Of a stretch of 64,000 nucleotides of DNA, positions 17,754 to 53,846 are shown one piece after another. Source of the DNA: Amycolatopsis deserti (GTDB lineage: Bacteria; Actinomycetota; Actinomycetes; Mycobacteriales; Pseudonocardiaceae); the NCBI RefSeq assembly GCF_014653945.1, contig NZ_BNAU01000001.1:682001-746000 (forward strand), read 5' to 3'. The notes beneath the pieces were generated by a model. It worked only from the letters and a program-made list of their open reading frames with translations. It ran no database searches and was not told where the DNA came from. Both the position numbers and the translations under genes were made by a program. The stretch's first letter is position 1. Each line of letters opens with the position of its first letter.

Positions 17754-17867
17754 ATGGCCGAATTCTTCGCCACCGTCCTCGCCAAGATCGGCGCGAACCT
17801 CATCGAGTCGCTGATCCTGCGCCTCGCGCAATCCCTGTTCACCCGCGCCTACGCCCCGGCCGTCTGA
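17754..17867 (+). CDS. 37-residue amphipathic microprotein
   Basis: A short frame (MAEFFATVLAKIGANLIESL then ILRLAQSLFTRAYAPAV) with AGGAG at 17743-17747, six bases before the ATG. The sequence predicts one amphipathic or membrane-surface helix. It lies 108 bases after the P-type ATPase, and its last 19 bases overlap the end of the convergent hydrolase gene. The good ribosome site and helical composition support real translation. I do not recognise the family. A regulatory micropeptide for the ATPase is one possibility. Confidence 0.5.
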   Translation: MAEFFATVLAKIGANLIESLILRLAQSLFTRAYAPAV

Positions 17868-18682
17868 CCCGGTAGCCGTCGGAGCCGGCCGAGGAAGGCC
17901 TCCAGCAGTGCCGTGATCGCGGCCGGTTGTTCCAGCGTGCTCGTGTGGCCGCAGCCAGGGAGGAGTCGCAGGTCGGCGGCCGGGATGAGGTCGGCGATGC
18001 GGCGTGCCTCCACCGGGGGAGTCGCTACGTCGTCCGCGCCGGTGACGACCAGGGTGGAGACTGCAATCCGGCCGAGTTCGGTCTCGACGCCGGGCCGGTC
18101 GGCCACCCCGTGCACGGCCCCGCGCAGGCCCGTGCGGTCGAGGCGGACCACACGTCGCTGCCAGGCGCTGAGGACCGGGCGGGCGGCGGGGTTCGCCAGG
18201 AAGGCGGGGCCGAACAGCAAGGGCCGGATCCGGGGCAGGAGCGGGCGCACTCCGATGACCCGCTGGACCCCGGCCATCCGGCGGTAGTCCCGTGCCTTGC
18301 CGGGGTCCTCGGCGCCAGCCGAGGTGCCCAGCAGCGTCAGCGACCGCAGCACCTCACCGTGGCGGGCGGCCAGCCGCTGGCCGACGAAACCGCCCATCGA
18401 CAGGCCCACCCAGTGCGCCGGCGCGAGCCCGAGCGCCTCGATCAGGCCCAGGGCGTCCGCGGTGAGCGTGTCCATGTCGTAGCCGCCGGGCGTGGCCGGG
18501 CTTTCGCCCTGACCGCGCCAATCCAGCGTCACGCACCGGTAGCGCGTGCACAGCGCGGCGATCTGCGGGCCGAACATCCAGCCGCCGAAGAGGAGACCGT
18601 GCCCGAACACCACGACCGGGGCGTCGCGGGGCCCGGTGTCGGTGTAGGCGATCCGGGCACCGTTCACCTCGGTCACGGGCAC
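17849..18682 (-). CDS. alpha/beta hydrolase
   Basis: A 277-residue alpha/beta-hydrolase-fold enzyme. The catalytic triad is visible: nucleophile in VGLSMGGF, acid in VTGADDVATP and histidine in GCGHTSTLEQP. The oxyanion region is VFGHGLLFGGWM. The GTG start (18680-18682) follows the P450 stop by 2 bases, so it is the last gene of the left arm of the lipid cluster. Hydrolysis of an ester, lactone or thioester of the cluster product is plausible; the substrate is unknown. Confidence 0.85.
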   Translation of the reverse strand: MPVTEVNGARIAYTDTGPRDAPVVVFGHGLLFGGWMFGPQIAALCTRYRCVTLDWRGQGESPATPGGYDMDTLTADALGLIEALGLAPAHWVGLSMGGFVGQRLAARHGEVLRSLTLLGTSAGAEDPGKARDYRRMAGVQRVIGVRPLLPRIRPLLFGPAFLANPAARPVLSAWQRRVVRLDRTGLRGAVHGVADRPGVETELGRIAVSTLVVTGADDVATPPVEARRIADLIPAADLRLLPGCGHTSTLEQPAAITALLEAFLGRLRRLPGQTAGA

Positions 18683-18684
18683 GG

Positions 18685-52015: not shown

Positions 52016-52485
52016 GCGCCAACGGGTCCCACGACGTCGACCGCGTGGTCACGGTGCTGCGGGAACAGGTCCTCGCGCTGTGCGCGCAGGCCTCCCGCGC
52101 GCCGGTGTCGGTGCGGGTGAGCGCCCACGACGTCGCCGTCGAGGTGGCGTGGGCCGAGAACGGCACGCCCGTCGCGGCGCCCGCGCCCGCTGAGCCCGCC
52201 GTGGCGCCCGTCGCGGTCGTCGAGCCCGCCCCGGCGGGGAACACCTTCACCCTCGACGCCGGGACCGTCGGCGTGTTCTACCGCGCGCCCGAACCCGGCG
52301 CGAAGCCGTTCACCGACATCGGCGAGACCGTCAAACCGGGCCAGCAGGTCGCGATCCTCGAGGCGATGAAGCTGATGATCCCGGTCGAGGCCGCGCGCGG
52401 CGGGCGGGTCGTCGAGGTGCTGGTCGAGGACGGCACCCCGGTCGAGCACGGCCAGCCGCTGTTCGTCCTGGAGCCGGACGCGTGA
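52012..52485 (+). CDS. accB: biotin carboxyl carrier protein
   Basis: A 157-residue BCCP. An N-terminal helix-rich part and Ala/Pro linker ([20 protein letters not shown]) lead to the biotinyl domain with [14 protein letters not shown], the biotin Lys in [13 protein letters not shown] and a final [13 protein letters not shown]. It overlaps AccDA by ATGA and the biotin carboxylase by GTGA, so subunits are made together. Confidence 0.94.
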
Positions 52486-53846
52486 TCGGCACGGTGCTGG
52501 TCGCCAACCGGGGCGAGATCGCGGTGCGGGTCGTGCGGACCTGCTGGGAGCTGGGCATCCGGTCGGTTGTGGCCCACTCCAGTGCGGACCGGGAGTCGGC
52601 CGCGGTGCGGCTGGCCGACGAGGCGATCCAGATCGGACCCGGTCCGGCGAAGGAGAGCTACCTCAACATCCCCGCGGTGATCGAGGCCGCCCGCGCCAAG
52701 GGGGCCGACGCCATCCACCCCGGCTACGGCTTCCTGTCGGAGAACCCGGACTTCGCCGAGGTGTGCGAGGCCGAGGGCATCACGTTCATCGGCCCGCCCG
52801 CCGGGGTCATGGCGCGGCTGGGGGACAAGTCCACCGCCCGCGCGATGATGGCCGAGGCCGGCCTGCCGTTGCTGCCGGGCAGCCGCGAACCCCTTTCCGG
52901 GGTGGCGGAGGCGGCCGCGCTCGCGGACGAGATCGGGTACCCGGTGATCATCAAGGCGGTCGCCGGCGGCGGTGGGCGCGGCATGGCGGTGGTCCGCTCG
53001 GCCGGCGAGTTCGCCGAGGCGTGGGCGCGCACCCGCGCGAGCGCCCAGGCGGTGTTCGGCGACGGGCGGCTCTACGTGGAGCGCTACCTCGACAGCGCGC
53101 GGCACGTGGAAATCCAGGTGCTCGCCGACACCCACGGCGGCGTGGTGCACCTGGGTGCGCGGGACTGCTCGCTGCAGCGACGGCACCAGAAGCTCGTCGA
53201 GGAGTCCCCGGCGCCGCGGCTGTCCCCGGACGTCGTGGTGGCGATGGGCGAGGCGGCGGTGCAGGGCGCCCGGGCCGCCGGGTACGTCGGCGCGGGCACC
53301 TTCGAGTTCCTGGTCGACACCGACGAGCGGTTCTACTTCATGGAGGTCAACTGCCGCCTGCAGGTCGAGCACCCCGTGACGGAGCTGGTCACCGGCCTGG
53401 ACCTGGTGCGCGAGCAGATCCGGGTCGCCGCGGGCGAACCGCTCGGCTACACCCGGGTCGAGCAGCGTGGCGCGGCGATCGAATGCCGGATCAACGCCGA
53501 GGACCCGTCGCGGGACTTCGCGCCCGCACCGGGGCTGCTGGCCGAATGCGAGCTGCCCGCCGGGCCGTTCACCCGCGTCGACACGCACGCCTTCCGCGGC
53601 TACCGGGTCCCGCCGCTGTACGACTCGCTGCTGGCGAAGCTCATCGTGTGGGCCCCCGACCGGGACGCCGCGATCGCCCGCATGCGCCGCGCGCTGGCCG
53701 AGGTGCGGCTGTCCGGGCCCGGCGTGGCGACGACGACGGAATTCCTCTCCGGCGTGCTCGACCACCCCCGGTTCCGGTCGGCCACCCACGACACGCGGTT
53801 CATTGAATCGGTCGTTCCGGAGACGTTCACCCGCGCTACGGCCTGA
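52482..53846 (+). CDS. accC: acetyl-CoA carboxylase biotin carboxylase subunit
   Basis: A 454-residue biotin carboxylase of normal length. Motifs: VANRGEIAVRVVRTCWELG, AIHPGYGFLSENPDFA, ATP-grasp IKAVAGGGGRGMAVV, RDCSLQRRHQKLVEESPAP, FMEVNCRLQVEHPVTE. It carboxylates BCCP-biotin with ATP and bicarbonate. Last gene of the right arm; with AccDA and BCCP it forms a complete acetyl-CoA carboxylase. GTG start. Confidence 0.95.
   Translation: MIGTVLVANRGEIAVRVVRTCWELGIRSVVAHSSADRESAAVRLADEAIQIGPGPAKESYLNIPAVIEAARAKGADAIHPGYGFLSENPDFAEVCEAEGITFIGPPAGVMARLGDKSTARAMMAEAGLPLLPGSREPLSGVAEAAALADEIGYPVIIKAVAGGGGRGMAVVRSAGEFAEAWARTRASAQAVFGDGRLYVERYLDSARHVEIQVLADTHGGVVHLGARDCSLQRRHQKLVEESPAPRLSPDVVVAMGEAAVQGARAAGYVGAGTFEFLVDTDERFYFMEVNCRLQVEHPVTELVTGLDLVREQIRVAAGEPLGYTRVEQRGAAIECRINAEDPSRDFAPAPGLLAECELPAGPFTRVDTHAFRGYRVPPLYDSLLAKLIVWAPDRDAAIARMRRALAEVRLSGPGVATTTEFLSGVLDHPRFRSATHDTRFIESVVPETFTRATA

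Follow-up and report, generated by a model that had tools for sequence, protein, structure and literature searches.

We analysed a stretch of 64,000 nucleotides from Amycolatopsis deserti (contig NZ_BNAU01000001.1, positions 682,001 to 746,000), referred to below as the window. It carries a gene cluster built around a reduced lipid synthase of the Pfa type, which has a single ketosynthase (KS) and is accompanied by two separable cassettes of tailoring genes, A (g13-g21) and B (g22-g31). Each cassette encodes a fatty acyl-AMP ligase (FAAL) type enzyme and an acyl carrier protein (ACP). We give an even chance to a joint pathway for a specialised lipid, in which the cassettes would supply a tailored chain to the reduced synthase. 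This is supported by the gene content and the readable active sites, by the co-occurrence of cassette markers with the core, and by the adjacency of cassettes and core. A preliminary description of this DNA had also named a reduced Pfa-type synthase with heavy lipid tailoring, and domain scores as well as gene content bear it out.

The host genome comprises 7.74 Mb and has a G+C content of about 73%. Genes were called from codon-position G+C, the genes of the window were numbered g01 to g51, and protein families were assigned with Pfam and the curated models of NCBIfam.

A recurrent reduced Pfa synthase

The core consists of three genes on the forward strand. The first, g37 (40523..46906), encodes a PfaA-like protein of 2127 aa with the domains KS, acyltransferase (AT), three ACPs, ketoreductase (KR) and dehydratase (DH), and it scored 1691.6 bits with the PfaA model TIGR02813 (curated cut-off 1010.1). 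It is followed by g38 (46903..48780; 625 aa), a double-hotdog dehydratase that corresponds to the DH half of PfaC only (FabA, 1.3e-29), and by g39 (48774..50327), a PfaD enoyl reductase (TIGR02814, 623.4 bits; curated cut-off 449.25). In g37, patterns located the KS Cys and second His, the AT motif GHSFG, three GVDSI motifs of the ACPs and the Tyr-Asn motif of the KR; the first His of the KS and the nucleotide motif of the KR were identified by eye. Judged by these motifs, the KS, the AT, the three ACPs and the KR are readable as intact. The ACPs form three near-identical tandem repeats (43878..44601, forward strand), with a 246-bp unit, 2.9 copies and a 91% match in Tandem Repeats Finder (TRF), and the protein repeats are 93-95% identical. 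The number of ACP motifs varies among close relatives, with three in the window and four in A. tucumanensis; elsewhere, the same motif was counted one to five times, and zero times where contigs end or the motif differs.

The two hotdog domains of g38 differ in an alignment of 17 relatives. In the second domain, His515 and Glu529 were invariant, a FabZ-like His/Glu pair as compared in the available part of PMC12964715. Because an invariant His was absent from the corresponding stretch of the first domain (W325-E342) in the same alignment, this domain is probably not catalytic.

In canonical Pfa systems, pfaC carries a KS and chain length factor (KS-CLF) region ahead of the dehydratases, and pfaB encodes a separate AT, according to the available parts of PMC3098273 and PMC13291983. 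In Pfam, g38 matched FabA, but no KS. A search of the whole host genome with the KS-CLF half (1392 residues) of a full-length relative (L068) did not find a KS-CLF: four places were matched, all within the first 477 residues of the query, which represent the KS, and the best was the KS of g37. A second acyltransferase that could represent PfaB had no match in the cluster genes scanned by Pfam, and the rest of the genome was not searched. In the same genome, the region G000:C4:16829-17419 has 65% DNA identity to the KS region of g37 and 40% protein identity to the KS query; it probably belongs to another type I polyketide synthase (PKS).

We then counted KS domains over 106 dehydratase loci. 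One KS was present in 67 loci, a class into which three full-length loci (Salbog, S503 and Persico) had landed through the filter or the locus ends. No KS was present in 33 loci, which are cut by contig ends, and two or more were present in six. Two of these six represent the single-KS type with an adjoining PKS (G283 and L147), and four are full-length types. These counts show that the reduced type recurs and is not a broken copy. By its gene complement, the synthase is a recurrent single-KS, reduced Pfa type without PfaB or KS-CLF. In a KS tree that addressed a single origin of the reduced type, the nine rows labelled full-length grouped to one side, weakly supported (57/99); the rows of Salbog, S503 and Persico are probably KS domains of PfaC and not of PfaA, and S. 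cattleyicolor and Embleya bear the full-length label without proof. A multi-KS PKS, apparently modular, is found close to the reduced core in G283 (L039-L041).

It is very improbable that the core is an ordinary polyunsaturated fatty acid (PUFA) synthase for membrane lipids, a question of product that overlaps with the pathway readings discussed below. The PfaA and PfaD model scores would fit such an enzyme, and a PUFA product was predicted for a Nocardia cluster in the available part of PMC4035055, but KS-CLF and PfaB are missing, the His/Glu pair of g38 is FabZ-like, and P450s and FAALs are present. The lack of KS-CLF and PfaB led us to reject PUFA as the default product.

Acetyl-CoA carboxylase and other core-side genes

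Downstream of the core, and also on the forward strand, lies a complete acetyl-CoA carboxylase (ACC), consisting of a fused AccD-AccA carboxyltransferase (g40, 50381..52015; Pfam and NCBIfam), a biotin carboxyl carrier protein (g41, 52012..52485; Pfam) and a biotin carboxylase (g42, 52482..53846; Pfam and NCBIfam). The synthase domains, the FabA-type protein, PfaD and the ACC had all been listed before, as one overlapping gene chain, and Pfam and NCBIfam recovered each of them in place. The overlaps exist within g37-g38-g39 and within g40-g41-g42, but a 53-base gap separates g39 from g40, and therefore the chain is not overlapping throughout. A dedicated malonyl-CoA supply, also proposed earlier, holds in part. 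The ACC is co-located with the core here and in many relatives, but on the R. opacus plasmid pRho-G13 the genes g33-g39 are followed by g44-g51 as in the window, with no ACC genes between them and three others inserted, and ACC genes were likewise not seen beside the core in R. jostii (L132) and S. himastatinicus (L077).

The left side of the core is flanked by four further genes on the forward strand. These encode a LysR regulator (g33, 35950..36888; Pfam), which has up to three homologues in one relative's locus (G077, G078), a third adenylating enzyme (g34, 36958..38487), for which CoA-ligase and not FAAL models ranked best in NCBIfam, an FAD oxidoreductase of the geranylgeranyl reductase (GGR)/halogenase superfamily (g35, 38645..39886; Pfam, NCBIfam and solved-structure matches), and an SGNH/GDSL esterase (g36, 39895..40500; Pfam). 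The nearest solved relatives of g35 are halogenases, but the WxWxIP motif of flavin halogenases was not seen by eye, and a reading as flavin halogenase was dropped.

Two separable tailoring cassettes

In the preliminary description, the tailoring genes had formed a single set. They fall into the two separable cassettes A and B, both by their order in relatives and by the distribution of marker genes.

All genes of cassette A are encoded on the reverse strand. By position, it begins with an alpha/beta hydrolase at the cassette end (g13, 17849..18682; Abhydrolase_1, 1.3e-24), the orthologues of which adjoin cassette A in two relatives (G249 and G077), followed by a cytochrome P450 (g14, 18685..19869; Pfam p450, Cys loop FGAGIHHCLG), a hotdog thioesterase (g15, 19873..20274; 4HBT) and the FAAL-type enzyme (g16, 20304..21881; AMP-binding). 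Next are a type II thioesterase (g17, 21884..22588; Thioesterase, 1.3e-34; motif GHSMG), a second P450 (g18, 22585..23805; Pfam p450) and an S-adenosylmethionine (SAM) dependent methyltransferase of the cyclopropane fatty acid (CFA)/mycolate type (g19, 23802..24644; CMAS, 2.3e-61). The ACP (g20, 24647..24919; PP-binding, 5.4e-19) and a membrane fatty acid desaturase (g21, 24916..25824; FA_desaturase, 1.1e-24) complete the cassette. In a PDB search, g18 matched BioI (3ejb) in fourth place (3.6e-67), a P450 that is reported to have been solved with an acyl-ACP.

Cassette B starts with three genes on the reverse strand: a hotdog thioesterase (g22, 25859..26302; 4HBT, 1.3e-17), found near cassette B in four relatives (G263, G257, G078 and G119), and two P450s (g23, 26299..27483; g24, 27480..28691; Pfam p450), which were assigned to it by gene order in relatives. 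The remaining genes are on the forward strand and encode an FAD-dependent oxidoreductase (g25, 28907..30178; Pfam FAD families), the FAAL-type enzyme (g26, 30183..31763), an ACP-desaturase-like diiron protein (g27, 31760..32575), a hotdog thioesterase (g28, 32572..32991; 4HBT), the ACP (g29, 33021..33248; PP-binding), a CFA-fold SAM methyltransferase (g30, 33245..34054; CMAS, 1.3e-39) and a protein of the acyl-ACP desaturase type (g31, 34060..34908; FA_desaturase_2, 5.9e-17; DesA2 1za0, 2.4e-6). For g27, a predicted structure model gave the fold match: it has the diiron helical-bundle fold of acyl-ACP desaturases with two ExxH motifs, and the model was closest to plant stearoyl-ACP desaturases. 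The assignment of g16 and g26 as FAALs follows sequence rank, with NCBIfam scores below the curated cut-offs. Both were closer to FAALs than to CoA ligases, g16 by NCBIfam alone, where FAAL-type models ranked best, and g26 also by PDB, where the best match was the fatty acyl-adenylate ligase 3pbk (3.5e-77).

Thus, the two FAALs, two ACPs, three desaturase-type enzymes (g21, g27, g31), two CFA-type methyltransferases, four P450s and two flavoproteins (g25, g35) of the earlier gene list were all present. To that list we add the hotdog thioesterases g15, g22 and g28, the type II thioesterase g17, the GDSL esterase g36, the adenylating enzyme g34, the LysR regulator g33 and the genes g44-g51. Because the FAALs g16 and g26 are 38% and the methyltransferases g19 and g30 35% identical, cassettes A and B look like old parallels.

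Cassette A shares the triad of FAAL, ACP and membrane desaturase with alkyne cassettes of the JamABC kind, a triad that is taken as a sign of alkyne potential in the available part of PMC8406139. An alkynyl product, which would be compatible with any order of steps and overlaps in probability with the pathway readings, is nevertheless improbable: cassette A has one membrane desaturase against three in polyyne clusters, a CFA-type methyltransferase lies between its ACP and its P450, and Pfam matched no rubredoxin in the cluster. The likeness concerns the gene triad.

Altered methyltransferase sites

The preliminary description had considered cyclopropanation possible. Three bicarbonate ligands, Glu, His and Tyr, are called strictly conserved in the CFA/CMA cyclopropane synthases (PMC9821293). 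In g30, the Glu is replaced by Val or Ile and the His by Ser in all 16 aligned orthologues, and only the Tyr is kept. In g19, Glu133 and Tyr218 are kept, and the His is replaced by Gln166 in 15 out of 15 aligned orthologues, one genome (G174/L120) being counted twice. Cyclopropanation by the methyltransferases of the cluster is doubtful, because g30 lacks two of the three ligands and g19 lacks one; g30 is probably not a cyclopropane synthase. A cyclopropane product as the default reading was rejected after this check. Both proteins have kept the fold of the cyclopropane synthases while parts of the catalytic bicarbonate site were lost.

Distribution of core and cassettes

Among 297 Pseudonocardiaceae genomes, the protein closest to g38 was found in a genome congeneric with the host (G162, 93%). 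At E 1e-20, g38 had matches in 60 of these genomes, and 17 were taken as carrying the reduced type, defined by a g38 match that reaches past the DH half at E below 1e-160, with the single-KS layout partly hidden by contig ends.

A scan with the g38 alignment, with one genome per species, yielded 151 relatives. The best 80 of the 151 belong to Nocardia, Frankia and allies, Rhodococcus, Amycolatopsis, Actinokineospora, Saccharopolyspora, Williamsia, Thermocatellispora and Streptomyces. Co-location in these 80 loci was scored within 10 kb at an identity of at least 35%, and many of the loci are cut by contig ends. They hold homologues of g37 (67 loci), g39 (64), g35 (48), g40 (46), g42 (43), g36 (43), g41 (42), g44 (39), g45 (39), g34 (35) and g46 (31). 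The cluster is more than a chance assembly, because these genes are found again, with their order largely preserved, in other genera. A scan of a plasmid collection for characterised clusters returned R. opacus pRho-G13 and full-length Pfa types, and no product. On an S. globosus plasmid (L073, 33979-41530), a type I-E CRISPR-Cas set lies near a full-length Pfa cluster.

The genes g19 and g27 served as markers for cassettes A and B, respectively, so that each cassette is represented by one marker outside the fetched loci, and the co-occurrence sets were compiled by hand from the search results. Hits of the B marker in the 297 genomes numbered 23 at E 1e-30, of which 17 were counted (whole match, identity at least 68%). 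Left out were G019, G085, G093, G147 and G282 (46-49%) as well as G167 (pieces of 71% and 58% on two contigs); G167, if counted, would be the seventh genome with a marker but without a core. Both markers were present in seven of the 17 reduced-core Pseudonocardiaceae, only A in three, only B in five and neither in two. Hence, at least one marker occurred in 15 of 17 core-bearing genomes, compared with 6 of 280 without a core. The A marker was found in 11 of the 297 genomes, 10 of them with a core (Fisher 1.7e-13), and the B marker in 17, 12 of them with a core (Fisher 4.5e-14), values that ignore kinship and are inflated by relatedness. In 50 core genomes of other families, taken from the 80 named loci after leaving out 30 (Pseudonocardiaceae and mostly short contigs), the A marker was present in 26 and the B marker in 42; 47 had at least one of them, 21 had both and three had neither. 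Of the 15 Pseudonocardiaceae that bear a marker, 14 have a cassette adjoining core genes on the same contig.

Proposed pathway

In the pathway that we prefer, the FAAL of each cassette would load a fatty acid onto the ACP of that cassette. The chain, bound to the ACP, would be the substrate of the desaturases; the methyltransferase would methylate it and a P450 would hydroxylate it. The tailored chain would then be passed as a primer to the single KS of g37 and be lengthened with malonyl units via KR, DH and PfaD, without the KS-CLF or the PfaB of canonical Pfa synthases. The GDSL esterase, the thioesterase and g34 would release or re-activate the product, and A and B would act as alternative or complementary suppliers. 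Tailoring on an ACP is suggested by the predicted model of g27, which is nearest to the plant stearoyl-ACP desaturases, and by the match of g18 to BioI. For FAAL-ACP-desaturase loading ahead of a PKS, JamABC provides a precedent (available parts of PMC11837247 and PMC8406139).

Several results weigh against this pathway. Kinship inflates the Fisher values, and neither marker was present in 3 of 50 and in 2 of 17 core genomes. In G152, cassette B is found on a large contig other than that of the core, which is also large. Cassette B is present without a reduced core in four Actinokineospora genomes (genus label g45) and together with a full-length-type g38 match, in place of the reduced core, in G142. 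G212 contains part of cassette A without a core. Therefore, the cassettes can exist without the reduced core. Furthermore, the sequence does not fix the order of steps or show acyl transfer from g20 or g29 to g37; we infer both.

Some of these results would suit several independent lipid pathways, each with its own product, that were selected to be neighbours, for example by shared LysR control. A and B each have their own ligase, ACP and thioesterase, the core and B are apart in G152, and in G251 a stand-alone cassette B is accompanied by a PPTase-family gene, a MaoC-like gene and a P450. However, the association with the core in 47 of 50 and in 15 of 17 genomes exceeds what would be expected for free pathways, and we regard independence as unlikely. 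The stand-alone B loci of G251 (L190-L191), G244 (L188-L189) and G236 (L194-L195) adjoin a protein of about 760 aa, for which Pfam gave no match in G251, and a second protein, of 218 aa, in which APIDAAVxAN motifs are repeated.

The steps might also run in the reverse order, which we consider possible but the less probable arrangement. The Pfa chain would be released as a free acid by the GDSL esterase and the thioesterase, and the FAALs would reload it onto the ACPs of the cassettes, where it would be desaturated, methylated and hydroxylated. Several points would agree with this order: short primers are the usual starters of Pfa synthases, free acids are the substrates of FAALs, an esterase and a ligase belong to the core itself, and the cassettes are interchangeable. 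Against it stands the weak argument that, without KS-CLF and PfaB, a short extension fits better than the synthesis of a long chain. The transfer of a tailored primer to g37 is our preferred order.

The wider cluster and its surroundings

The preliminary description had placed the cluster at 17849..53846. On the right, this boundary is too tight, as conserved genes extend to about window position 66350. The ACC is followed by g43 (53887-55443), which encodes a protein that looks secreted and contains a phosphodiester glycosidase (NAGPA) domain, and which has no match in the closest relative, G162. Between g43 and the window end, on the reverse strand, are a Ugp-like ABC importer (g44-g47, 55498..59753; NCBIfam), which adjoins the core in relatives, and a hydrolase (g49), a hotdog protein (g50) and an acyl-CoA dehydrogenase (g51), together at 61802..64000, the last of which extends beyond the window end. 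All four importer proteins ranked Ugp models first, with only UgpC above its cut-off, at subfamily level (445.9 against 432), and UgpA, UgpB and UgpE below theirs; by sequence, g46 was nearest to generic sugar-binding proteins, followed by UgpB. The genes g44-g47, g49, g50 and g51 travel with the core in relatives, at times reordered or on the opposite side (G077, G078).

Just outside the window lie genes for a 2Fe-2S/NAD reductase (64485-65405) and a hydrolase of the metallo-beta-lactamase (MBL) fold (65626-66351). In a survey of 100 neighbourhoods, in which 11 genomes are represented twice, these families occurred in 31 and 15, respectively. The reductase is likely the electron donor for the P450s and the desaturases. 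A CpdA-type calcineurin-like phosphodiesterase occurred in 37 of the 100 neighbourhoods, mostly between the homologues of g45 and g46, a place where the window has none.

These results would also fit a wider reading, which we hold tentatively and at somewhat less than an even chance: a modular lipid system widespread in actinobacteria, in which interchangeable FAAL-ACP cassettes hand methyl-branched and hydroxylated acyl chains, already tailored, to a single-KS Pfa elongase. This system would be tied to the Ugp-like importer and, in relatives, also to a metallo-phosphodiesterase with a possible role in supplying or recycling a phosphodiester headgroup. If true, Nocardia, Frankia, Rhodococcus and Amycolatopsis would contain a lipid class that has not yet been described. 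The core is kept in many actinobacterial genomes, nearly always with a cassette where examined, which suggests a lipid that is important and yet was missed or not linked to its genes. The cluster would also be a natural example of exchangeable acyl-tailoring parts ahead of or behind a Pfa synthase.

In R. jostii (L132, 13476-14921), a gene of the pyridoxal-dependent decarboxylase family directly follows PfaD. The same place in R. opacus (L072) holds a 482-aa gene; R. opacus also has a gene that is GNAT-like by eye, a family that recurs in four loci. An amine headgroup is perhaps made in these two Rhodococcus loci. To the left of the cluster, the window encodes a P-type cation ATPase (13476-17645), which is unusually long with 1389 aa. 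No tRNA genes were found in the 64-kb window, and no RNA elements either, in the window at gathering scores or in 28600-31000 at E 0.1.

Comparison with known systems

The mycolic acid machinery (FadD32, Pks13, CmaA/MmaA and DesA) also combines a FAAL, a type I KS-AT protein, DesA-like desaturases and CMAS-family methyltransferases. However, g37 scored 343.7 bits with the Pks13 model, far under the cut-off of 2100, and contains tandem ACPs, a KR and a DH, and the ACC of the window is of the AccDA, carrier protein and biotin carboxylase type. The JamABC and polyyne cassettes share the stand-alone FAAL, the ACP and the membrane desaturase, as far as the available parts of PMC8406139 and PMC11837247 describe them; the cluster differs from them by its CFA-fold methyltransferases, its P450s, the diiron desaturase-type proteins of cassette B and the presence of one membrane desaturase instead of three.

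The secondary lipid synthases of the Pfa family are closer. According to the available part of PMC3098273, they share the PfaA-like KS-AT-tandem ACP-KR-DH protein, a FabA-type double dehydratase and PfaD; the cluster differs in that it has neither PfaB nor a KS-CLF ahead of the dehydratases and contains FAAL-ACP cassettes. That source defined types A-T of secondary lipid and pfa-like clusters in 2011, including clusters of Frankia (type M) and R. erythropolis (type Q) for which no product had been detected. The cluster possibly falls within type M or Q; the coincidence is one of hosts (Frankia and Rhodococcus). In 2014, a Nocardia pfaA cluster (#11) with a KS/AT/ACP/ACP/KR protein was described, including an IFM strain of N. 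brasiliensis, and its product was not detected either (available part of PMC4035055). N. brasiliensis IFM 10847 (L086) holds a single-KS relative. Cassettes are not described in that part of the account. PUFA-like genes were also reported earlier in Kutzneria.

In agreement with the preliminary description, no product or description of this gene set was found among the matches listed in the literature searched, which included few subscription papers. The class of the synthase itself is already known. New, as far as that literature goes, are the arrangement in cassettes and their link to the reduced core, the larger extent of the cluster, and the changes in the sites of the methyltransferases.

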